NCBI RefSeq assembly: GCF_020532705.1
Contig: NZ_JAJAVD010000001.1
Coordinates: forward strand, 310,001 to 374,000
Reading direction: 5' to 3'
Origin: Methylobacillus caricis
GTDB lineage: Bacteria; Pseudomonadota; Gammaproteobacteria; Burkholderiales; Methylophilaceae
Length of the DNA stretch: 64,000 bases
The notes under the pieces were generated by a model, which searched no databases, had not been told where the DNA came from, and saw nothing but the letters and a program-made list of their open reading frames with translations. Positions 50,631 to 64,000 of this stretch are shown one piece after another (the first letter of the stretch is position 1; every line of letters begins with the position of its first letter). Both the position numbers and the translations under genes were made by a program.

Positions 50631-51143
50631 GTGAAATATATTGCGACTATTTTAATCTCGTTTTGGGCCTCAAGTGCTTTTGCAGACATTGTGGTGCCGA
50701 TCAATCTGGTAAGTGATCAGGGTGTAGGTGAGTCTGCGGGTACTATACGTATTGTAGAGAACCAATATGGCCTGGTTTTTACCGCATCACTGAAGGGGTT
50801 GGCACCTGGTCTGCACGGGTTCCACCTGCATCAGAATCCAAGTTGCGACGCCAAGGAAAAAGACGGTAAGAAAGAAGCAGCAGGCGCGGCAGGCGGGCAT
50901 TTCGATCCCGCAAATTCAGCGCAGCATGGCACGCCCTGGGGCAAAGGGCATTTAGGTGATTTGCCTCCCTTGTATGTGAATTCTGATGGCAGCGCATCGC
51001 AGCCTGTATTGGCTCCGCGCCTGAAGGTTAAGGATTTGACTGGGCACGCGCTGATAATACATGCCGGCGGTGATAATCATGCCGATCAGCCGGAAAAGCT
51101 TGGAGGTGGTGGAGCACGCGTTGCCTGCGGCGTGATTAAGTAA
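50631..51143 (+). CDS. sodC: Periplasmic Cu/Zn superoxide dismutase
   Basis: A 170-aa enzyme with a signal peptide (cleaved after AFA) that removes superoxide in the periplasm. Copper and zinc ligands in [32 protein letters not shown] and [10 protein letters not shown]; the disulfide Cys are in NPSCD and RVACGVIK. The start is GTG at 50631, 6 nt after AAGGAG. Confidence 0.96.
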
Positions 51144-51290
51144 GCAGATCTACTGTCAAGCCGGCAGTGTGGCCAGTGCCAGAAAAGGCATTCAAATTCG
51201 ATCCCTCAATGTGAGATTAGCCTGGATGACATATCCATGCTGATCGCGGCAATGCAGGCAAGTGCTGAAAGGCAGACCCAGTCTATCGTC

Positions 51291-52847
51291 ATGACTCCAG
51301 TCCATACCGTATTGCTGCGTTATCTCGCTATCCTACTGCTGGGGGTTCAGCTGGGGGCGTGTGCGTTGCCACAAGTCAAGGAGCGCACCCTTTCTTCTGC
51401 ACTGACGGCGGAAGAATCTTCCGCAACCACTCTGGGAAGGGTGCTGGAGCCGATCAAGCGGCCGCACAGCGGGAAATCCGGCATCATGCCGTTGGTGGAT
51501 GCGCACAGCGCATTTGCTGCCCGAATGTTGATGGCAAACTCCGCAGAGAAAACCCTGGATATCCAAAACTATATCTGGCGCAATGACAATACCGGTACCT
51601 TATTGCTGGAAGCGTTGCATAAGGCTGCCGACCGGGGGGTGAGGGTACGCCTGTTACTTGACGATAATGGCATCCCGGGCCTGGATGCCAGGTTGGCTGC
51701 CCTTGATAGCCATCCCATGATAGAAGTGCGTTTGTTCAATCCTTTTCCCTTTCGCCCAGCCAAGTTTCTTGGGTATCTGACTGATTTTTCCCGGGTAAAC
51801 CGGCGTATGCATAATAAATCCTTCACTGTCGATAACCAGGTCACGATCGTTGGGGGACGCAACATTGGAGATGAGTATTTTGGCGCCACTGATGGCGTGC
51901 TATTTGCCGATCTGGACCTGATGGCAATTGGTGACGTGGTCAGGGAAACCTCTAGTGATTTTGATCGTTACTGGGCGAGCGATTCAGCCTACCCAGCAAG
52001 TCAGATATTGCCGCAAAGGCCGGTTGAAGAGTTGAGGTTTCTTACTGAGGCTGCAAACGATGTGGAACAGGCAGTGACCAATGAGGGATACGTCAAGGCT
52101 TTGGGGGATAGCCAGTTTATCCGTGATTTCCTGGATGGAAGGCATGATTTTGACTGGGCCAAGGTGGAGATGATCAGCGACGACCCAAAAAAAGGCTTGG
52201 GATTGGCTGAAAACAAGGATTTTCTCATGTTTGATCTGCAGCGGATATTGCGCCAGCCACGCGCTTCTGTTGACCTTGTCTCACCTTATTTCGTGCCGAC
52301 TAAAACCGGCGCGGCTGGCTTCAGCCGCTTGTCGGCACAAGGCGTCAAGGTTCGTATCCTCACCAATGCCCTTGAATCCACCGACGTGGCTGCTGTACAT
52401 GCAGGTTATGCCAAACACCGAAAAGCGTTGCTGAAAGCCGGGATTGAGCTGTATGAAATGCGGCGCCAGGGAAATGCCAGCCAATGGGAGCAGCGTCTCG
52501 GCCCATTGGGTAGCTCCGGCTCGAGTTTACATGCCAAAACCTTTACTGTTGATAGTTCACGAGTGTTTGTGGGATCTTTCAACTTTGATCCAAGATCAGC
52601 ACGCTTGAACACTGAACTGGGTTTTATCGTAGAAAGCCCGGCTTTGGCTGAAAAAATCCAGAAGGCTTTTGAATCCAATGTGCCGGAGCTGGCATATGAA
52701 GTCAGGCTCAATGATGAGGGAGAGCTTTACTGGATAGAGCGCAAGGGAGAAGAGGAATTAATCTATTACACTGATCCTGGAACCAGTTTCCTGAAGCGGT
52801 TAGGGGTCAGCATCCTCTCCGTGTTTCCAATAGACTGGTTGCTATAG
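51291..52847 (+). CDS. Phospholipase D-family lipoprotein, cardiolipin-synthase-like (ClsC type)
   Basis: A 518-aa protein with a lipoprotein-like signal (VLLRYLAILLLGVQLGAC) and two HKD motifs: MHNKSFTVDNQVTIVGGRN (about residue 190) and LHAKTFTVDSSRVFVGSFNF (about 420). Members of this family join phospholipids to make cardiolipin or act as transphosphatidylases. The ATG at 51291 starts the signal; an upstream ATG at 51237 would add 18 polar residues and cannot be excluded. Confidence 0.88.
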   Translation: MTPVHTVLLRYLAILLLGVQLGACALPQVKERTLSSALTAEESSATTLGRVLEPIKRPHSGKSGIMPLVDAHSAFAARMLMANSAEKTLDIQNYIWRNDNTGTLLLEALHKAADRGVRVRLLLDDNGIPGLDARLAALDSHPMIEVRLFNPFPFRPAKFLGYLTDFSRVNRRMHNKSFTVDNQVTIVGGRNIGDEYFGATDGVLFADLDLMAIGDVVRETSSDFDRYWASDSAYPASQILPQRPVEELRFLTEAANDVEQAVTNEGYVKALGDSQFIRDFLDGRHDFDWAKVEMISDDPKKGLGLAENKDFLMFDLQRILRQPRASVDLVSPYFVPTKTGAAGFSRLSAQGVKVRILTNALESTDVAAVHAGYAKHRKALLKAGIELYEMRRQGNASQWEQRLGPLGSSGSSLHAKTFTVDSSRVFVGSFNFDPRSARLNTELGFIVESPALAEKIQKAFESNVPELAYEVRLNDEGELYWIERKGEEELIYYTDPGTSFLKRLGVSILSVFPIDWLL

Positions 52848-52939
52848 CAATCAGCGTATTGAGACGGCTTGCAGTCATCGTGCAATGACTCTTAAGTGTC
52901 ATCAGAACTTTCCTACGCACATTCATGCTTTTGACTGAC

Positions 52940-52963
52940 TAACGGGATTCGTTTGTCCCGTTA
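52940..52963. terminator. Hairpin between the phospholipase D-family and hemerythrin genes
   Basis: TAACGGGA (52940-52947) pairs with TCCCGTTA (52956-52963) around an 8-nt loop. No T-run, so it may be a terminator or an operator for the hemerythrin gene 36 bp downstream. Confidence 0.4.
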
Positions 52964-52999
52964 TATTGAGCAAGTTAAAGATGGACCAAGGGAGGGCAT

Positions 53000-53440
53000 A
53001 TGAATATTTTTGAAGCGTTAAGGGAAAGTCATGTTCGTCAAAGGGAAATTCTGGACCAACTGGTGAAAACCAGTGGAGATACGCCTGAGCGTGATGCGCT
53101 TTTCAAGCAAGTCAAGGCCGAGCTGGCAGCACACGAGCGCGCCGAAGAACGGCATTTTTATATTCCTATCATGACAGATGATAATGGTATCGAACCTTCT
53201 CGGCATGGCATTGCAGAGCATCATGAAATTGACGAAATCCTTGAGAAACTGGACGAGACCGAACCTTCATCGCCTGCCTGGCTGGCATATGCCAGAAACC
53301 TACAGGAGAAAGTCTTGCATCACTTAGAGGAAGAAGAGCACAAGTTTTTTCAGATGGCTGGCAAGATACTGTCGGACCAGCAGAAAGAAGCGCTTTCCAA
53401 GCCTTATTTAAAGGACTATCAGGAAGCCTTGCGGCAGTAG
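53000..53440 (+). CDS. Hemerythrin HHE-domain protein
   Basis: A 146-aa four-helix protein with diiron-ligand candidates in RESHVRQRE, AAHERAEERHFY, GIAEHHEIDEIL and KVLHHLEEEEHKFF. Bacterial HHE proteins bind O2 or handle oxidative and nitrosative stress. Ribosome binding site GGGAGG. Stands alone. Confidence 0.9.
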   Translation: MNIFEALRESHVRQREILDQLVKTSGDTPERDALFKQVKAELAAHERAEERHFYIPIMTDDNGIEPSRHGIAEHHEIDEILEKLDETEPSSPAWLAYARNLQEKVLHHLEEEEHKFFQMAGKILSDQQKEALSKPYLKDYQEALRQ

Positions 53441-54733: not shown

Positions 54734-54982
54734 GACGTTCTCCTGATTGGAAGGGGGGGCTTATTTGGGCTAATTCATAGCGTAATTTAATCACATAACT
54801 TGCCAAATGTTCGACAACTGCATCTACCGTTCCTGGGCTGCCCCTATCTGCTATGACATCAGAAAATGGAACCTCTGCATAAAGAAAGTCCGACACGAAT
54901 TTAAGTATTGGCTGATAAGGGAAATAACAACTTGCACGTTAGCATGAAACTTTCAGTTCACTTGATGAAACAGGAGACTACC

Positions 54983-55873
54983 ATGACCTTAGAATATGAG
55001 ACCAAGGATGACCACCGTGAAATGGATCAGCCCGCGCAGGTGCAGGATCGGCAACCTGGGGTGGAGTCGGATATGGAGCCACGTCCTCAATACATAGACC
55101 CGGAATACCGCGGTAGTGGGAAGCTGGAAGGCAAGGCGGCATTGATTACTGGAGGGGATAGCGGTATTGGTCGTGCCGTGGCGGTGCATTTTGCGGTAGA
55201 GGGTGCAAATGTAGTCATCAATTATTTGAGTGACCACGAACGTGGTGATGCTGAGAAAACGTTAGACCTTATCAAGGAGCAGGGGGTTAAAGGAATTGCT
55301 ATCCAAGGAGATGTTGGGCAGGAAAATTTTTGCAAGGAACTAGTGCAAAGTACAGTCAAAGAGTTTGGCCAACTGGATATCGTCGTCAACAATGCAGCAC
55401 AGCAGCATCCGCAACGTGGTATAGAAGATATTGACCAGGAGCAGTTGGAACTCACTTTCCGTACCAATATATTTTCAATGTTTTATATCGTCAAGGCAGC
55501 AATGCCTTTCCTGAAAAAGGGTGCGCATATTATCAACACCGCGTCTGTCACTGCTTACAAGGGCAACCCTGTATTGGTGGATTATTCTGCAACCAAGGGC
55601 GCGATCGTTTCATTTACGCGTTCATTGGCGGTAGAGTTGAGTGAGCGGAAAATTTATGTGAACGCGGTTGCACCAGGCCCGATATGGACCCCTCTGATTC
55701 CTGCGAGTTTTCCTGCAGATAAGGTGGGGGAATTCGGCAAGGAAACTTTGCTTAAACGTCCAGGCCAGCCGAGCGAGGTAGCGCCTGCTTATGTGTTCCT
55801 CGCTTCCAATGACTCCTCGTACATGACCGGACAAGTCATACACCCGAATGGAGGCACCGTGGTGAATGGGTAA
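54983..55873 (+). CDS. NAD(P)-dependent short-chain dehydrogenase (YghA/YhdF-like)
   Basis: A 296-aa SDR with a polar N-terminal extension of about 45 residues (MEPRPQYIDPEYRGSGKLEG) typical of the stress-associated YghA/YhdF group. Cofactor motif LITGGDSGIGRAVA, NNAAQQHPQ, catalytic Ser in NTASVTAYKG and YSATKGAIVSF. The start at 54983 follows CAGGAG; the longer TTG frame at 54908 is rejected. Confidence 0.93.
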   Translation: MTLEYETKDDHREMDQPAQVQDRQPGVESDMEPRPQYIDPEYRGSGKLEGKAALITGGDSGIGRAVAVHFAVEGANVVINYLSDHERGDAEKTLDLIKEQGVKGIAIQGDVGQENFCKELVQSTVKEFGQLDIVVNNAAQQHPQRGIEDIDQEQLELTFRTNIFSMFYIVKAAMPFLKKGAHIINTASVTAYKGNPVLVDYSATKGAIVSFTRSLAVELSERKIYVNAVAPGPIWTPLIPASFPADKVGEFGKETLLKRPGQPSEVAPAYVFLASNDSSYMTGQVIHPNGGTVVNG

Positions 55874-56293: not shown

Positions 56294-57742
56294 TTAGTTT
56301 AGTAACTCTGCTTTAAAAATGCGTGTCGCAACCAGCCCTATAGGGTAATGGTGCATGGCAGGGGATATCCATGCTCCCAATAGCCGCATTAATACGTCTT
56401 TGTCGGTAATGGTTTCAAGCTGCTGGTTGAAAAGGCGCTGTTCATCGGTTTGCGGGGCATTGTCGGATTTTACCAATTGAATGATATTCGAGGATGGATC
56501 GGTTTTCTCGGTATTCTGATACTTGTCTTTACGGCGCTTTTGTACCCGCCAAGACTCACCCAGCCGATCACGTTTTGGCAATTGTTCTAGAATATCTCCC
56601 GCTGTCCAGTCATAAAGCACCTGTTTTTCATAGGGGGTGAATACTCCGAACATCTGGCCTTGATGGCCATCAATGAGTTTCCAAAACCTTGAGCTTTGCG
56701 GATCACGATGGCGGTTAATCCACCCATGATCCTGTAGCGCCTGCAGCAAAACCGGTATTTGATCGCCATTGGATAACCATTCTTGCAAACTCAGTCCGCC
56801 GATCCGGCAATGATGATGGTGCATGAACTGGCCAACAGTCGCTTTCTCCCGGAATATCTGCAGTACCTCTTTTTCCAGATCAAAGGACTTTATGATCTCA
56901 ACTGATCCCAGTCCGCTGTTGCTGAGTTTGGCTCCATTGCACAACCGCCTGATGAAATCCTGGCGGTCGTTGAATTGTGGAATGATATCGCGTACTGCAT
57001 TGACCGCTTTAATAGCGTGCCCGGATAGCGCGTTGTCGATGGTGATGTGTAAGGTGAAGTAATAAGGGTCGATATTGAGCTCGTTCAGCTCAGCTGCGGT
57101 AATCAGCAAATGAAGCGGCAATTGTTCGTAAGCAAGGTTGAAGCCTATGACTTCTGGTAGAAATTGGTCGGCATGAGCGGCTAGCGCCAGCTGAATTGCT
57201 CCCTGGGTAAAATAACGGTCGTCCAGGGTTTTCCATTGTTCGCATCCATAGGAGTGAATCAATTTGCGATAAATGGCGACATGATTTTTTTCCTCATGCC
57301 CATCACCCAGTTCCTCAAGATATATATCCAGCAATGCACTGAAGCCAGGGTCATTCCAGCGTTTGACCAGGCCGTAAAGCCATGCCCCGTCGACCATTTT
57401 TGTGGGAGCTACCGATTTGATGAAGTTCAATGCGTGTGCCTTGCTGCTGAAATAGCGGCGGGGTGCCCCATTCTTGCGTGATTGCAGGTATTTTTGATAT
57501 TCCCTGCCAGCATCTTGGCTGCTTTGCACTATCCAGTCCTCCAGCTGTTCTATGTCAGCGGGGATGGGGGAGGCGTCTTCGGTACAATTCTCAAGCTGCT
57601 GCTGCAGGAACGCAAGTCCGCTGGCCCGGCTGCTGTCCGCGCCAGAATCGCGCAGCAGGCTGAAATACAGCTCTCGCGGCGATATCCCTGTCTTTACCGT
57701 ATCCTGCAACGGGGAAGGGGCAGATTGGCTCAATATATGCAT
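56294..57742 (-). CDS. Heme-oxygenase-fold iron-containing redox enzyme
   Basis: A 482-aa protein of the Haem_oxygenas_2 / iron-containing redox enzyme type. Candidate metal ligands: LEELGDGHEEKNHVAIYRK (about residue 142) and YFTLHITIDNALSGHAIKAV (about residue 228), the E/D-G-x-x-x-x-x-H and H-x3-D patterns of this fold. The C-terminal half (from about 300) is a separate helical region with MHHHHCRIGGLSLQEWL. Family members oxidise varied small molecules (fatty acids, amino acids). No biosynthetic partners are adjacent except possibly the divergent methyltransferase. AGGAACAA precedes the ATG. Confidence 0.78.
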   Translation of the reverse strand: MHILSQSAPSPLQDTVKTGISPRELYFSLLRDSGADSSRASGLAFLQQQLENCTEDASPIPADIEQLEDWIVQSSQDAGREYQKYLQSRKNGAPRRYFSSKAHALNFIKSVAPTKMVDGAWLYGLVKRWNDPGFSALLDIYLEELGDGHEEKNHVAIYRKLIHSYGCEQWKTLDDRYFTQGAIQLALAAHADQFLPEVIGFNLAYEQLPLHLLITAAELNELNIDPYYFTLHITIDNALSGHAIKAVNAVRDIIPQFNDRQDFIRRLCNGAKLSNSGLGSVEIIKSFDLEKEVLQIFREKATVGQFMHHHHCRIGGLSLQEWLSNGDQIPVLLQALQDHGWINRHRDPQSSRFWKLIDGHQGQMFGVFTPYEKQVLYDWTAGDILEQLPKRDRLGESWRVQKRRKDKYQNTEKTDPSSNIIQLVKSDNAPQTDEQRLFNQQLETITDKDVLMRLLGAWISPAMHHYPIGLVATRIFKAELLN

Positions 57743-57917
57743 TTGTTCCTGTCATCCAAGAAGAATTTGATTCCTTTATTTTCATTTCATCTCTCCATGC
57801 CAGTTATCAGGAAGAGGATTAATCTGCTGTAAGACTGGGACGACAGGCAAGCCGCGCTTATTCTGTTAGGCTGGAAATAAGCAAATTTGGAAGCCTGGTT
57901 TTCCAGGACATCATCCT

Positions 57918-58874
57918 ATGACCGTAAAGACAATATCGAGCGAAAAGATCTCTGCCTTGTCCGCTATCCTTGAATTGCTGCAGCGGCATGAATATGAGTT
58001 CATCACCATCTCTCCCGCTAGCCATGAATTAGTGAATCGCCGCCCAGGAAATGAGCTGGGCAGGGACCTGGCAGGAATTTTTGGATGGAACCGGCCTTTT
58101 AAGCCTGAAGTGGCGGGAAAAGAGCTGTTCGCCTTGCTGGAGCAAGCCGAGGCCCTGGATTTTGATGGAAATGCATGGCGCAGCCGGCTCCGGGTCTCCA
58201 GCATGGCTGGGCAACTGTTCTTGCATTCAGCATTTCCCACCACTGAGGCAGACGCTATATTTTTTGGTCCGGATACCTACCGGTTCTCCCGTGTAATCGA
58301 GCAATATCTTGCCCTCTACCAACCTGAGGTGCGGTGTGCCGTGGATATAGGATGTGGCAGTGGCGCCGGTGCTATCCTCCTGGCCCAGAACCTGCCCCAG
58401 GCCCAGGTATACGGTGTGGATATTAACGACAAGGCCTTGGCGTTTGCCCACGCAAATGGCGTGGCCAGCGGATTTTCCAATCTTCATTGGAAAAACAGCA
58501 ACCTTCTGCGTGAACTACAGGGTGAATTTGATTTGATTGTTGCCAATCCTCCTTACCTCGTGGATGCCTCGGAACGTGCCTACCGCCATGGTGGCGGCTT
58601 GTTGGGGGCCGGGATATCTTTACAGATTGTGGAGGCTGCAATGAATCGGCTCGCTCCCCAAGGGACTTTATTGCTGTATACGGGGATTGCCGTGGTGAAC
58701 GGGGAAGACCTTTTCTTGCGGGAGGTGCAATCCATGTTGGGCGGAAGCACGATGCAATATCAATATCGGGAAATAGATCCGGATATTTTTGGGGAAGAAC
58801 TCCGTAATCCTGCTTACGCTAGCGTAGATAGACTGGCTGCAGTGGAATTGATTGTAAATAAGCCGGCACGTTAG
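57918..58874 (+). CDS. Class I SAM-dependent methyltransferase
   Basis: A 318-aa protein: an N-terminal domain of about 130 residues, then a Rossmann methyltransferase with VDIGCGSGAGAILLA (about 141), VYGVDIND and the NPPY motif (LIVANPPYLVD). NPPY is typical of enzymes that methylate amide or amino nitrogen, such as HemK/PrmC, RsmC and N6-adenine enzymes. The N-terminus is not that of PrmC, so the substrate is open. Divergent from the heme-oxygenase-fold gene. Confidence 0.82.
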   Translation: MTVKTISSEKISALSAILELLQRHEYEFITISPASHELVNRRPGNELGRDLAGIFGWNRPFKPEVAGKELFALLEQAEALDFDGNAWRSRLRVSSMAGQLFLHSAFPTTEADAIFFGPDTYRFSRVIEQYLALYQPEVRCAVDIGCGSGAGAILLAQNLPQAQVYGVDINDKALAFAHANGVASGFSNLHWKNSNLLRELQGEFDLIVANPPYLVDASERAYRHGGGLLGAGISLQIVEAAMNRLAPQGTLLLYTGIAVVNGEDLFLREVQSMLGGSTMQYQYREIDPDIFGEELRNPAYASVDRLAAVELIVNKPAR

Positions 58875-59113: not shown

Positions 59114-59569
59114 CTACCTGATGTTTTCCTTGATAACGAACCCCTCAGGAGCAGGAGCCACTTTGGATTCAGGGCTTTCGCCTTCATTATTTTCATCAAT
59201 GATTTCGGGCTGCACGTCTGGCTCATCAGGCTCGGTAGGCTGGTAGGGCTGTTCTGGATCTGGCTTGATAGGCTTGTTGTGCTCTGTCTCATGAGGCAGG
59301 GTATTCGCCTTCAACGCCTGTGTGGCCTCTTCGCCATGGCCTTCCTCCTCAGCGTGTTTCAGCTTGTTTCCAGGGATGGCATGGGAGGACGGAACATTCT
59401 GGCCGCCACTGACATTGCGGTTCTGAAGGTGGATGTCGGGATTATCCTCAACAATGCCGTCCAGTGCCTGATCCAAACCCTTGCCCTTTTCAGGATCCTG
59501 CAAAGTCTGGCGATAAATACCATAATCAGGCTCTTGGCCCCGGTGCTTGTCATCAATATGGGAGCTCAT
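59114..59569 (-). CDS. Acidic, probably disordered stress-type protein
   Basis: A 151-aa hydrophilic protein without Cys, low in hydrophobic residues and rich in Glu, Pro, Asp and Asn (LKHAEEEGHGEEATQALKA; KPDPEQPYQPTEPDEPDVQP). Probably disordered, like small stress-induced proteins. AAGGAATA precedes the ATG. No family recognised. Located between tiny membrane protein and trehalose genes. Confidence 0.7.
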   Translation of the reverse strand: MSSHIDDKHRGQEPDYGIYRQTLQDPEKGKGLDQALDGIVEDNPDIHLQNRNVSGGQNVPSSHAIPGNKLKHAEEEGHGEEATQALKANTLPHETEHNKPIKPDPEQPYQPTEPDEPDVQPEIIDENNEGESPESKVAPAPEGFVIKENIR

Positions 59570-59671: not shown

Positions 59672-62521
59672 TCATGAGGAACGCCCCTTGTTTTTTACAG
59701 CACGGATATCCACTGAGATCGCGGCTAACGGCAGGCTGGAAAAGAGCTCATTCACTTTGATCAGTCCTGCATAAATGTGGCGCGGCTGGCCAGAGACTAT
59801 GTCCAGCGCTTCCGCATTGAGTTCGGCAGGCAGGTGAATGACAGTGTCTTTCCACGCCTCCAGGTTCAGGGCCAGCCTTTGCCTTCCTTCCATATAAAGA
59901 GCAGCAAGCCTTGGCACCACGACGATAATTGCCTGAAAATGAAAGCTGCGCATAAATGCCAGCACGTGGGCAGCACGCGGCCCTGTGACTTTCAGCACGA
60001 TATAGTCCCCTCGGCTGAATAGGTCTGGCTGTTCTTTCCGATGCTGCAATAGATTGCGGATGAGGTGCTGCTTGATTGCTCCGTTTTGCCAGAGTGCCAC
60101 TTTGTCCGGAAGTGCCGCGTTGGATTCCAGCAATTGCTCCCTGTGTGAGTAGTCCACGGGGCGGCGGTTGTCAGGATCTACCAGGCTGAAATCCCAAAGC
60201 TCGGTTCCCTGGTAAAGATCGGGAATGCCGGGAGTCGTCAGGCGCAACAGGGTTTGAGCCAGGCTGTTGGTTGCCCCGGTGGCGGATATTTCCTGTACAA
60301 AGGCGTATGCGGACTGCAGGAACAACATGCTTTGTTCCGGGTCCAGGATATTGAATAGCAAGCTGCTGCAGGCGTTTTCATATTCCTCATTCACTTGCAT
60401 CCAGCCAGATAAGCGCTTTGCCTCGCGAACGCTCTTTATCATCCATTGATTGAGACGGTCGGCATACGCCTTGAGGCCTTCAGCATCGTCAATATGCAAC
60501 TCGTAAGGCCAAGCGCCGATCAGCATTTGATAGAGCATGATCTCATGCTGGGAGCGGGGGGCATTGTAGCTGACGGTCAAGTTTTCTTCCGGGCATATGT
60601 CCTGGTGGAAGCGCGCGTTCATGGTGAGCCATTCCTGCACCATTGTTTCCCAGCGCTGGGGCATCTGGCTCAGGGCGGCAATCCGCATCCGGGTGTCCTC
60701 GCCGCGCTTGTGGTCATGGGTGGCCGTGCTAAGCATGGTGTTTGGGTAAAGCTTGCGGCGCTTGATGCAGGTTTGATGAAAGTCTTGCGGTGCAAGGGAG
60801 AAGTGATCCGGGTCGCTTCCCACTTCATTGCGTGAAAGCAGGCGTCCAAAACGATAGAAGGCAGTATCCTCCATGGATTTTGCGCATAACGGCGGTATCA
60901 GCTGCTGGAAGCGCGTGATGGCGCGCTGTGACAGGTCTGAGAGCTGGCTTTCGGGATCAGCAATCACCAGCTCCGCGCTTAGCCAGCCAAGCACGATATC
61001 CACCAATGGCTTGTCAACCTGGCCCAGGGTGCGCCGGGCGTTGGTGGCGGTGGCCTGGAAGATGGCATGGTCGATCTGGTCTGGACCGGTTGTGCCAACA
61101 TAACTTCGATAGACAGGAAAGTGGACAAGGATTTCTGCCAGTACGCGCTTGATGGCGGCGAGGGAGTAATCCCGGGTGCGCAGCTCGGCCCGGGCAATAC
61201 GGTGTATTGCGGCAGCCGTGGCATTGAATTCGCCCACCAGGTTTTCGGAAAGCAATTGATAGCGGGCACTGCGGACATGGTGTGCAAAGTCGTACCGGTC
61301 GCCAGTGGTTTTCTGCCAGAAGGCAGTGAGCGGCACGGCACCGCGTGGATCATGCAGGACGGCGCTCACCTGATCCATGAACTCGTAGCCCGTGGTGCCG
61401 TCCAAAAGCCAATCCTTGCGCAGCCATTCGCCTGGGCCGAGAATTTTCTCGGCAATGATGTAGGGGCTTTGCTGCAGGTGTTTGGGCCTGTGCTTGCATA
61501 GCTGCTTCAATCTTGCCCGCAGTTTGGTGCAATACTCCCGAGGGTGGGCCAGTCCATCGATATGGTCCAGCCGTACCCCGTCCACCAGGCCCTGGCGGTA
61601 AAGACTGAATAGCAATGAGTGGGTTGCCTCAAATACCTCATCCAGTTCAACCCGGATGCCGGCCAGCTCGCTTACCTCAAAGAACCGGCGCCAATTGATC
61701 TCGTCTGCCGCGTTGCGCCACCATGTGAGACGGTAGTGCTGACGGTCCAGCAACAGGTGGAGCTTCATGCGGCTTGCACTATCAGCGCGATTGTAATGGG
61801 AGAGGGCCGATTCAAGAGCAGCTTTGCCCGCGGCGCTGCTGGCAATCTCCTGCAGGGCTTGCCGGGCTGGCATCACTGTTTTTTTCAACCGCTGGAAGGG
61901 CAATTGGTCATCCAGTTTATCCAGAGCATCTATTACCGGTTGAAGCAGCTTGCTGTTTGCCTGATGCAGGACGGCAGGATAGTCTGGCAGCGCAATCGGG
62001 AACAGGTTGTCGTAATAAGCGACTGCGATCTGGCCTGTGGCTTGGTTATAGGTAAGTTTTAGCTCCCCCTTGTCCAGTACTTCCCCATAAGGTTCTCCCA
62101 GGAAGGGAGCCAAAATCTTGTTATGCAGGGCTGGGTCCGTGGAGTGCCAGTCTATGTCGAACCAGAAGGCGTAAGGGCTATTCTGTCCCCATTCAAAAAC
62201 ATGTTGCCACCAAGGGTTTTCCGCGCCGCCAACCCCCATATGGTTGGGCACGATGTCCACGATCAGGCCCATGCCGGCGGCACGCAATCCATCGACCAGG
62301 CGCCTTAAGCCCTGTTCCCCCCCCAGTTCCGCGCTGACTTGGGTGGGGTCAACAATATCGTAGCCATGGGTTGAGCTGCTGCGCGCGGCCAGTATGGGCG
62401 AGGCGTAGACATGGCTGATGCCCAGGCTGGCGAAGTAGGGAATGCGTTCCAGGGCATGGTCAAAGGTAAAGCCCTGATGAAACTGCAGGCGTACGGTGGC
62501 GGTAATGTCCGATCTAGGCAT
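59672..62521 (-). CDS. treY: Malto-oligosyltrehalose synthase
   Basis: A GH13 enzyme (949 aa) converting the reducing end of maltodextrins into a trehalosyl unit. TATVRLQFHQGFTFDHA, HVYASPILAARSSSTHGYDIVD, VDIVPNHMGVGG, VRLDHIDGLAHP and MLSTATHDHKRGEDTR are characteristic. The start at 62521 (MPRSDITA) overlaps the treZ stop by 8 bp. With TreZ it makes trehalose, an osmo- and desiccation protectant. Confidence 0.96.
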   Translation of the reverse strand: MPRSDITATVRLQFHQGFTFDHALERIPYFASLGISHVYASPILAARSSSTHGYDIVDPTQVSAELGGEQGLRRLVDGLRAAGMGLIVDIVPNHMGVGGAENPWWQHVFEWGQNSPYAFWFDIDWHSTDPALHNKILAPFLGEPYGEVLDKGELKLTYNQATGQIAVAYYDNLFPIALPDYPAVLHQANSKLLQPVIDALDKLDDQLPFQRLKKTVMPARQALQEIASSAAGKAALESALSHYNRADSASRMKLHLLLDRQHYRLTWWRNAADEINWRRFFEVSELAGIRVELDEVFEATHSLLFSLYRQGLVDGVRLDHIDGLAHPREYCTKLRARLKQLCKHRPKHLQQSPYIIAEKILGPGEWLRKDWLLDGTTGYEFMDQVSAVLHDPRGAVPLTAFWQKTTGDRYDFAHHVRSARYQLLSENLVGEFNATAAAIHRIARAELRTRDYSLAAIKRVLAEILVHFPVYRSYVGTTGPDQIDHAIFQATATNARRTLGQVDKPLVDIVLGWLSAELVIADPESQLSDLSQRAITRFQQLIPPLCAKSMEDTAFYRFGRLLSRNEVGSDPDHFSLAPQDFHQTCIKRRKLYPNTMLSTATHDHKRGEDTRMRIAALSQMPQRWETMVQEWLTMNARFHQDICPEENLTVSYNAPRSQHEIMLYQMLIGAWPYELHIDDAEGLKAYADRLNQWMIKSVREAKRLSGWMQVNEEYENACSSLLFNILDPEQSMLFLQSAYAFVQEISATGATNSLAQTLLRLTTPGIPDLYQGTELWDFSLVDPDNRRPVDYSHREQLLESNAALPDKVALWQNGAIKQHLIRNLLQHRKEQPDLFSRGDYIVLKVTGPRAAHVLAFMRSFHFQAIIVVVPRLAALYMEGRQRLALNLEAWKDTVIHLPAELNAEALDIVSGQPRHIYAGLIKVNELFSSLPLAAISVDIRAVKNKGRSS

Positions 62522-64000
62522 GGTCGACCAGTGGAAGTGGGGATTCAAGGCAAGCCATGACGCTGTAAGCAGGCATTTGCCCTGCAATCAGGGCGGCCTG
62601 GGCGTTTCCGTGATCCAGCAATACCTGGGCAGGGCCTGACACCAGGTCATCAAGCTGTTTGCTGGCAGCTTCCGGGCCGAGGTTAGCCACCAGGGTGAGA
62701 ACAGAGCCGTTACCCAATTGCCATTGGGCATAAACTGCATAAGGCCCAAAGGCGGCATAGCGCAGGGCGCGGCATAGCAGCAGGTGGGGCAGGAGGTGAA
62801 GGTGGCGTAGTTGCAATAAATGGCTGATCCACTCGCGCCAGGCAGTTTGTTCCACCGTTTGATGGTCATGGGGAATGGAGCGGTTAAAGCTGGATTCGGC
62901 ATTCGGGTCGGGGATGCTGTCTGCCAATAGCGGATCCTGAAACTGTGCGAAAGTGGAGAACTCGGCCCTCCGGCCTTCGCGTATAGCCTTGGCCAGTGCC
63001 GGATCCGCATGGCTGGTGAAGTAAATGAAAGGCTCGGTAGCGCCGTATTCCTCGCCCATGAACATCAGCGGCACATGCGGGCTCAGCAGCAGTAAAGCGC
63101 TTGCCACCTTGAGTGCATGTTCTGGGGCCAGGGTGGTCAGTCGCTCCCCAAATGGACGGTTGCCGATCTGGTCATGGTTCTGCAGGAACATGACAAAACT
63201 GGACGCCACGAGCCCGCTGCTGGGCTCACCTCGCGGAGTGTGGTTGCGATGGGCCGAGGTTTCTCCTTGGTAGACAAACCCTTCTCCCAGGCAACGGGCG
63301 AGTTTGTCTATGGTATTTTCTGCGTAATCGGAGTAGTAACCCTCGGTTTCCCCGGTAAGCAACACGTGCAATACATGGTGGCTATCATCGTTCCATTGGG
63401 CGTCATAACCGTTTTGCAGAAGCGTCACTGAGTTGTTGTCATTTTCCGCGACCAGGTGAACGAGGCGCTTGTCCTGGAACTCCTCGCGTATCCTTGCGGC
63501 AATGTTCAGCAGAAAGTCCTGATCCCAGATGGCATGGCAGGCGTCGAAGCGTAAACCGTCGAATTGGAATTCCTGCAGCCAGTAGAGCGCGTTCTCGCTG
63601 TAAAACTCTATGACCTCCGGATGGGAAAAGTTGATGGCATCGCCCCATGGCGTCTGGTGTTCATGGCAGAAAAACTGGGGGGCATAATGATGCAAGTAAT
63701 TGCCGTCTGGGCCGAAGTGGTTATATACCACGTCCAGGAGAACGCTTATCCCCAGGGTATGGGCATCGTCCACCAGGGCTTTCAAATCATCAGGCGAACC
63801 ATAGGAGAATTGAGGTGCAAACTGCAGCACGCCGTCATAACCCCAGTTACGGCCACCGGGAAAACTGGCAAGCGGCATCAGTTCTATGGCAGTAAAGCCC
63901 ATGGCGGCCAATTGCGGCAATCTCGCACGCACCCCTTGATATCCTCCCAGGGCGCCCACATGGGCTTCATACAAAATGGTTTCATGCCATGGCCGGCCTT
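62514..64000 (-). CDS. treZ: Malto-oligosyltrehalose trehalohydrolase (5' end outside window)
   Basis: A GH13 enzyme that releases trehalose from the TreY product; about 495 residues are visible. The frame is still open at 64000 (reading RPWHETILYEAHVGALGG), so the N-terminal CBM48-like part lies beyond the window. Seen: FTAIELMPLASFPGGRNWGY, LLDVVYNHFGPDGNYL, catalytic Asp in GLRFDACHAIWD, Glu in VHLVAENDNN (as LVAEND) and FLQNHDQIGNRPFGER. An internal ATG at 63974 is not the true start. Confidence 0.95.
   Translation of the reverse strand, partial: GRPWHETILYEAHVGALGGYQGVRARLPQLAAMGFTAIELMPLASFPGGRNWGYDGVLQFAPQFSYGSPDDLKALVDDAHTLGISVLLDVVYNHFGPDGNYLHHYAPQFFCHEHQTPWGDAINFSHPEVIEFYSENALYWLQEFQFDGLRFDACHAIWDQDFLLNIAARIREEFQDKRLVHLVAENDNNSVTLLQNGYDAQWNDDSHHVLHVLLTGETEGYYSDYAENTIDKLARCLGEGFVYQGETSAHRNHTPRGEPSSGLVASSFVMFLQNHDQIGNRPFGERLTTLAPEHALKVASALLLLSPHVPLMFMGEEYGATEPFIYFTSHADPALAKAIREGRRAEFSTFAQFQDPLLADSIPDPNAESSFNRSIPHDHQTVEQTAWREWISHLLQLRHLHLLPHLLLCRALRYAAFGPYAVYAQWQLGNGSVLTLVANLGPEAASKQLDDLVSGPAQVLLDHGNAQAALIAGQMPAYSVMACLESPLPLVDHA

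Follow-up and report, generated by a model that had tools for sequence, protein, structure and literature searches.

A DtpC-family heme-oxygenase-like protein of Methylobacillus caricis with a frequent methyltransferase partner, a putative shifted metal ligand and a C-terminal part of no recognised fold

DtpC of Acinetobacter baumannii is a desiccation-survival protein of the heme-oxygenase-like dimetal oxidase superfamily (HDO; PF14518) (PMC13232832). Either dtpC or the catalase gene katE alone is reported to be enough to hold H2O2 low in A. baumannii, and protection is not restored when any one of the DtpC residues E143, H153 and H232 is replaced by Ala (PMC13232832). Mutants in dtpC survive drying better when iron is chelated; the authors leave iron binding open and state that no other HDO had been tied to desiccation or oxidative stress (PMC13232832). 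The words 'substrate', 'methyltransferase' and 'C-terminal' are absent from the main text of that paper. The HDOs characterised so far are reported to use mostly fatty or amino acids; HrmI oxidises lysine and SznF oxidises methylarginine (PMC13108848), and RohS converts 2-aminoimidazole, itself derived from arginine, to a nitroimidazole (PMC10724926). In streptozotocin biosynthesis, SznF works with SznE, an arginine-guanidino methyltransferase (PMC11705231). SznF requires E215, H225, E281, H311, D315 and H318, and Ala replacement at E215/H225 and H311/D315 abolishes its activity (PMC11705231). Metal content varies in the superfamily: FlcD, in which the last two ligands are Val and Arg, is described as mononuclear, about 9% of HDO groups show no clear motif and are perhaps metal-free, and the spacing of the last three ligands is reported to be variable (PMC11363339).

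We analysed a 64,000-nucleotide stretch of the M. caricis genome (2.97 Mb), referred to here as the window, in which a first-pass annotation had placed a gene for a heme-oxygenase-fold iron enzyme divergent from a methyltransferase (MT) gene. The ORF at 56294-57742 is real and is read from the minus strand; 14 stops interrupt the plus strand over that interval. It encodes a long-form HDO of 482 aa. In a Pfam profile search, PF14518 covered residues 106-262 (E 1.5e-26; 93.7 bits against a cut-off of 28.9); no NCBIfam model matched the protein at E<=1. We divide it into an N-terminal helical part (residues 12-61; 57560-57709, minus strand), bounded by structural alignment ranges, an HDO core (residues 62-290; 56873-57559, minus strand), delimited with an AlphaFold2 model and VIA-align 2, and a C-terminal region (residues 291-482 plus the stop; 56294-56872, minus strand).

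Identity between the window protein and DtpC was 38% by tblastn, 39% over 435 columns of a multiple alignment and 42% over 414 residues of a pairwise local alignment, and the homology is near full-length, including the C-terminal region. All seven conserved acid/His positions are shared, among them the shifted His242 described below, and E143, H153 and H232 of DtpC align with E144, H154 and H232 of the window protein. (When DtpC is numbered from the tenth codon of the ORF at locus L168, these three residues fall at their published positions.) A tree was built from 46 long HDOs together with four paralogues and three outgroups; in it, DtpC and the proteins from Acinetobacter plasmids were placed beside all the other long HDOs and apart from the outgroups, on a stem that carries no support value. 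The full-length homology, the equivalent essential residues and the tree together lead us to assign the window protein, on sequence evidence, to the DtpC family, and we infer that it has a role in desiccation.

The A. baumannii loci were found by tblastn of plasmid records (PLSDB), in which three chromosome-size A. baumannii records matched; two of these were examined. It should be noted that NZ_CP064203.1, NZ_CP077849.1 and NZ_CP104448.1, of 3.7-4.1 Mb, are labelled as plasmids in PLSDB and are evidently A. baumannii chromosomes. In both examined records a long catalase gene begins 54 bp after the HDO ORF, an arrangement of dtpC and katE as in the published locus (PMC13232832). The window gene differs in being divergent to the MT gene. 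No MT match was present in the examined flanks of A. baumannii dtpC, and no catalase was recognised beside the window HDO gene. Catalase matches were present at 11 of the 122 examined loci, including three from Methylophilaceae (L070, L075 and L090).

Read from gene names, the surroundings of the window gene look like a stress island for drying, osmotic and oxidative stress. An SDR gene at 54908-55873 (plus strand) encodes a homologue (53%) of the SDR found beside dtpC-katE in A. baumannii. Genes for a Cu/Zn SOD, a PLD-family protein and a hemerythrin lie at 50631-53440 (plus strand) and belong to the presumed island; a DUF1348 protein, recognised with Pfam, is encoded in the same stretch as the SOD, hemerythrin and SDR. 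On the other side, two alpha-amylase-family genes at 59672-63974 (minus strand) are read as TreY and TreZ, and beyond them, outside the window, are TreS-like, GlgE, PLD and endonuclease/phosphatase-family genes. Between the MT and these trehalose-type genes, at 59114-59569 (minus strand), lies a gene for a very hydrophilic protein of 151 aa (mean hydropathy -1.28; no Pfam match), which could be a drying-protection protein.

Similar settings were seen elsewhere. Eleven Acinetobacter plasmids have an HDO match, and the three that were examined (L170, L172 and L173) carry HDO, catalase and OtsA/OtsB genes, one of them with a Zn-alcohol dehydrogenase in addition; a Zn-alcohol dehydrogenase match, at 26-31% identity in some cases, was present at 44 of the 122 examined loci. 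The plasmid islands also include genes for DUF421, acyl-CoA dehydrogenase, PIG-L deacetylase and glycosyltransferase proteins, as well as a SAM methyltransferase that is NodS-like in L170.

A single-sequence scan of the genome contigs found nothing. Neither phmmer nor a profile search against the PDB returned an HDO; these were recovered by fold comparison alone. The AlphaFold2 model, built from 35 sequences, had a mean pLDDT of 89.3 and a pTM of 0.89. With VIA-align 2 its nearest structures were RohS (Z 19.7; 265 residues aligned, 3.7 A), HrmI (18.3), SznF (17.6) and FlcD (14.1), followed by CADD (12.9), BesC (12.3), UndA (11.1) and AetD (9.7), a Z under about 13 being weak evidence for helical bundles. 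Foldseek gave the same order for its best matches (RohS 2.2e-3, HrmI 4.1e-3, SznF 2.5e-2), none of its matches to the whole model reaching E 0.001. The heme-oxygenase-like fold that had been proposed from the letters of the sequence is thus borne out by PF14518 and by the model. The match begins at residue 8-14 for RohS, HrmI, SznF and FlcD and at residue 61-62 for CADD, BesC and UndA, so that the N-terminal helices are common to the first four alignments and are not part of the other three. RohS and HrmI, the closest structural matches, are both N-oxygenases; their identity to the window protein is 11-14%, and the match stops at about residue 302, which leaves the C-terminal region without a counterpart in the aligned ranges. 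SznF resembles the window protein in fold, in the N-terminal helical part, in the E-x9-H and H-x3-D patterns and in acting together with a methyltransferase (PMC11705231). It differs in its C-terminal cupin, the window protein having there a helical region with two very short strands, and it was not matched at E<=10 in a sequence profile search.

The association of HDO and MT was examined in 300 genomes of the order and 299 of the phylum, two samples that share genomes and within which relatives are not independent. MT was counted at E<=1e-30, and three weak HDO matches (G051, G568 and G454; E 1e-18 to 1e-19, in frames of 736-758 aa) were left out; their inclusion gives long-HDO tallies of 11/300 and 15/299. 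In the order sample 10 genomes had a strong long HDO, nine had MT and seven had both, so MT was present in 7/10 HDO genomes vs 2/290 others. The corresponding numbers for the phylum were 12, 13 and 10, with MT in 10/12 HDO genomes vs 3/287 others. Fisher p values for order and phylum were 1.0e-10 and 1.4e-14 per genome, and 3.8e-5 and 1.4e-7 per genus. The co-occurrence on which the first-pass annotation had staked its pairing of the two genes is therefore found. It is not universal: three of 18 genomes with a strong long HDO had no MT at E<=1e-30. Of the 20 MT genomes in both samples, 15 had a long HDO, four had another PF14518 protein and one (G474) had no PF14518 protein.

When gene order was considered, MT was divergent to HDO in all five of the six Methylobacillus genomes that have HDO, and also in two other HDO-bearing genera of the family. 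Among the named loci, which are the best 80 of at least 578, are rich in Stutzerimonas and Massilia and represent some genomes twice (e.g. L015 and L067), MT adjoins HDO in 56, in tandem at 45, divergently at nine and convergently at two. In three genomes of one genus, one of them Massilia phyllostachyos, MT is located elsewhere in the genome, apart from HDO. A further 254 genomes, from which G663 (a contig-edge fragment) and the weak matches G454 and G771 were left out, yielded two new full-length HDOs (G632 and G684), each with MT in tandem.

Thirteen MT loci without a long HDO were also examined, Massilia L165 and L166 not being counted. At eight of them (L160, L161, L164, L174, L175, L176, L178 and L179), which include loci from Legionella, Komagataeibacter and Sphingobium, a short HDO was encoded within about 1.6 kb of MT; at the other five (L162, L163, L177, L180 and L181) the MT flanks contained neither type of HDO. 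The short PF14518 proteins share with the window protein an MT partner of the same family and the E-x9-H and H-x3-D patterns. They differ in their length of 294-345 residues, in lacking the C-terminal region, in their identity to the window protein (14-20% where aligned) and in having the canonical His at Asp+3 in six of seven aligned sequences, the seventh being broken off. The strongest hint of a common pathway is the pairing of one MT family with HDOs of two very different types. The MT loci without HDO and the long HDOs without MT indicate that the tie is not strict. On balance we think it likely that HDO and MT act in one pathway, and the conserved partner offers a concrete handle on the function of the DtpC family. 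Paper titles among the matches listed contained no link of HDO to a methyltransferase, to cyanophycin or to RpoS.

Our best reading is that HDO and MT would be a stress-linked pair that methylates and oxygenates a small, perhaps arginine-derived molecule, for which we infer both the substrate and the chemistry. HDO would be a metal-dependent, O2-activating enzyme of the DtpC family, encoded among genes for drying, osmotic and oxidative stress. MT would most likely methylate a planar nitrogen, of guanidine or amide type, in a small nitrogenous compound, and HDO would N-oxygenate this compound or its product, much as SznE and SznF act on arginine. In cells that are dried or in stationary phase, damage by peroxide and iron might be limited by the product, or through the consumption of O2 and reducing power. 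Taken whole, a DtpC-family O2-activating HDO in a pathway with MT among stress genes is a tentative proposal, to which we give slightly less than an even chance. N-oxygenation by HDO, taken by itself, is possible and we lean mildly against it; if it is true, rare natural-product chemistry would be part of ordinary bacterial stress physiology. A wider version, drawn by analogy with streptozotocin biosynthesis and in our view unlikely, would have a two-enzyme pathway across several classes of Pseudomonadota, encoded among desiccation and stationary-phase genes, in which N-methylation and then N-oxygenation of an arginine-type metabolite yield a general stress protectant. Its product might chelate metal, release NO or be an N-hydroxy or nitroso compound. 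One MT family would have recruited two very different HDOs, of which one would use the shifted third His and have the C-terminal region without a recognised fold.

The stress-gene setting would also suit a simpler role, in which HDO is a direct antioxidant of drying cells, using up O2 or H2O2 or binding free iron, and its neighbour MT has only regulation in common with it. The reported sufficiency of either dtpC or katE in keeping H2O2 low and the benefit of chelation to dtpC mutants (PMC13232832) agree with such a role, as do the three of 18 genomes with a long HDO and no MT. These genomes, together with the absence of MT by dtpC, suggest that HDO can work free of MT or with another source of substrate. 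However, the two genes remain neighbours whether arranged in tandem, divergently or convergently, MT also pairs with the second, very different HDO type, and the characterised HDOs are reported to act mostly on fatty or amino acids (PMC13108848). We therefore regard a purely antioxidant HDO as somewhat unlikely, and continue with the pathway reading.

The divergent NPPY methyltransferase noted at first pass was confirmed as a class I SAM methyltransferase gene at 57918-58874 (plus strand), 175 bp from the HDO gene. Its product of 318 aa matches Pfam MTS (7.3e-16) and has the NPPY motif at residues 210-213 (58545-58556, plus strand); no Pfam match at E<=1 was obtained for the first ~120 residues. 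Its best curated relatives are the NCBIfam PrmC and HemK models, and among solved structures HemK is the nearest to it in sequence (3.9e-16). The MT shares with the HemK/PrmC N5-glutamine methyltransferases a SAM domain with NPPY, but it scores far under the curated cut-offs (PrmC 6.6e-22, 78.2 bits against 199.1; HemK 66.3 bits against 115.5), and its N-terminal part is the one without a Pfam match. These relatives raise the alternative that MT, as a HemK-like enzyme, methylates protein or RNA, and that what it shares with HDO is stress regulation and not a pathway. Conservation of the divergent intergenic region in Methylobacillus would fit shared regulation. Against it stand the low scores, the unmatched N-terminal part and the presence of MT at E<=1e-30 in 9/300 and 13/299 genomes, so few as to be unlike a housekeeping release-factor methyltransferase; we consider a HemK-like role quite unlikely, and a small-molecule MT remains our preferred reading.

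The strongly conserved stretch of the intergenic region, about 43 bp at 57803-57845, was defined from five aligned Methylobacillus genomes. Its pattern, with at most one mismatch, had three matches in the genome vs four for a reversed control, and a regulon is not claimed from it. The core of the element, with no mismatch, occurs at two genome sites, one of them 57803-57845 itself.

The residues that may bind metal were compared in an alignment of 109 long relatives, which contains 101 distinct sequences when the last 400 residues are compared. D118, E144, H154, E206, H232, D236 and H242 are invariant throughout (109/109), so the acid/His pattern to which the first-pass annotation had drawn attention is not due to chance. 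Two metal ions, most likely iron, would be bound by E144, H154, E206, H232, D236 and H242, and possibly by D118 as a seventh residue. The pair E144-x9-H154 (57281-57313, minus strand) corresponds to E143 and H153 of DtpC and, by spacing, to E215 and H225 of SznF; the E-10-H and H-4-D spacings match those of SznF E215/H225 and H311/D315. The candidate ligand E206 (57125-57127, minus strand) corresponds by order to SznF E281, and D118 (57389-57391, minus strand) is a candidate whose spacing matches SznF E189, which we take to be its counterpart. The third-helix motif H232-x3-D236-x5-H242 (57017-57049, minus strand) departs from the E-H-E-H-(D/E)-H pattern of the superfamily at its last position. 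The first five residues are present in 109/109, but the usual sixth ligand, a His at Asp+3, is missing and an invariant His is found at Asp+6 instead. At position 239, where the usual His would lie, the residues are D 42, G 25, A 19, L 7, S 7, H 5, Q 2 and M 2. In the model, helix 227-235 stops before D236 and the next helix starts from 243, making it plausible that H242 is carried on a loop. Three distant relatives, 703-745 aa long, share the arrangement H-x3-D-x5-H, whereas two short HDOs checked in parallel had H-x3-D-x2-H. The three distant HDOs (L023, L064 and L065) each have a carbamoyltransferase-like gene nearby, its identity read from the gene start.

With His at position 239 in just five of 109 sequences, HDO might not be a dimetal protein and might instead bind one iron, like FlcD, or none, as suggested by the mononuclear state of FlcD and by the HDO groups without a clear motif (PMC11363339). 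The FlcD motif E-H-E-H-V-R is, however, not that of the long HDOs, in which the Val position is the invariant D236. The His at Asp+6 is invariant and extends to the distant relatives, and the FlcD authors themselves report variable spacing of the last three ligands (PMC11363339). A further contrast is provided by a Methylobacillus paralogue with genuine ligand loss, described next. We accordingly find a mononuclear or metal-free HDO very unlikely and a dimetal site very probable; the shifted His widens the metal-ligand motifs that should be counted in HDO surveys.

The paralogue is located at G000:C1:422601-423899 (L024 7374-8966) and is also found in L020, L021, L022 and L017. E144 and H242 are gone in all four aligned copies and H154 in three of the four. 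Most copies adjoin ychF, as read from the gene start, and in M. glycogenes (L017) the gene is split over two frames. The lost ligands and the disrupted copy suggest, from sequence, that the paralogue is probably a pseudoenzyme retained in the genus.

The first-pass annotation had set the last ~190 residues, with a segment HHHHC, apart from the core. They do lie outside PF14518, are modelled as mostly helical and are conserved, with H308, H464 and T473 present in 109/109 aligned long relatives; the weight given to HHHHC (residues 308-312; 56807-56821, minus strand) did not hold up, three of its five positions not being conserved. In the alignment H308 is found in 109/109 and C312 in 104/109, and the commonest letters are H-S-D-Y-C. 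A separate metal site at HHHHC was dropped, conservation being limited to H308 and C312. Modelled in isolation, the region had a pLDDT of 84 and a pTM of 0.56 and gave no confident PDB match: Foldseek returned nothing below E 4.6, and VIA-align Z was at most 3.9 over about 50 residues. A winged helix was suggested by weak MarR matches (E 0.053, 0.3; 0.57) and was rejected, without support from the fold searches of the isolated model. The C-terminal region is thus without a recognised fold among the listed matches, and may nonetheless have a known one.

Leads to the substrate came from loci in which MT or HDO is linked to arginine-related genes. At the one Legionella sainthelensi locus examined, MT is fused to a dimethylargininase/arginine-dihydrolase-type domain, all of whose matches are under curated cut-offs, and the fusion is followed by a short HDO. 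In one Sphingobium the genes for cphA, isoaspartyl peptidase, cyanophycinase, MT and HDO are consecutive, and a single Pseudoduganella locus shows the order HDO-MT-isoaspartyl peptidase-cyanophycinase-cphA. At three Sphingobium loci, MT is near a glutamate or dicarboxylate symporter, which could indicate acidic amino acids instead of arginine. An arginine-type substrate is, in our estimate, doubtful.

The examined flanks of the long HDO contained a cphA match at 23 of 109 loci with a long-HDO match (L064 being of the distant type, and L063 and L131 coming from one genome), including every one of the 15 named Massilia loci and both from Duganella. A role for HDO and MT as accessory enzymes of cyanophycin, with the polymer or its beta-Asp-Arg dipeptide as substrate, is nevertheless most improbable in spite of these loci and of the two five-gene clusters, given that the source genome has no cphA match, that cphA was unmatched in the examined Stutzerimonas, Pseudomonas and Methylophilaceae loci and that the overall association is weak (3/12 vs 16/287 genomes, p 0.03). 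Cyanophycin as the core function was rejected on the same absence from the source genome and from the examined loci outside the Massilia group with its relatives, Sphingobium and L164. CphA-like synthetases adjoin HDO in L051, L063, L121 and other Massilia loci, and G091 has a separate, less similar cphA elsewhere in its genome. The HDO-adjacent Massilia synthetases may perhaps make something besides ordinary cyanophycin.
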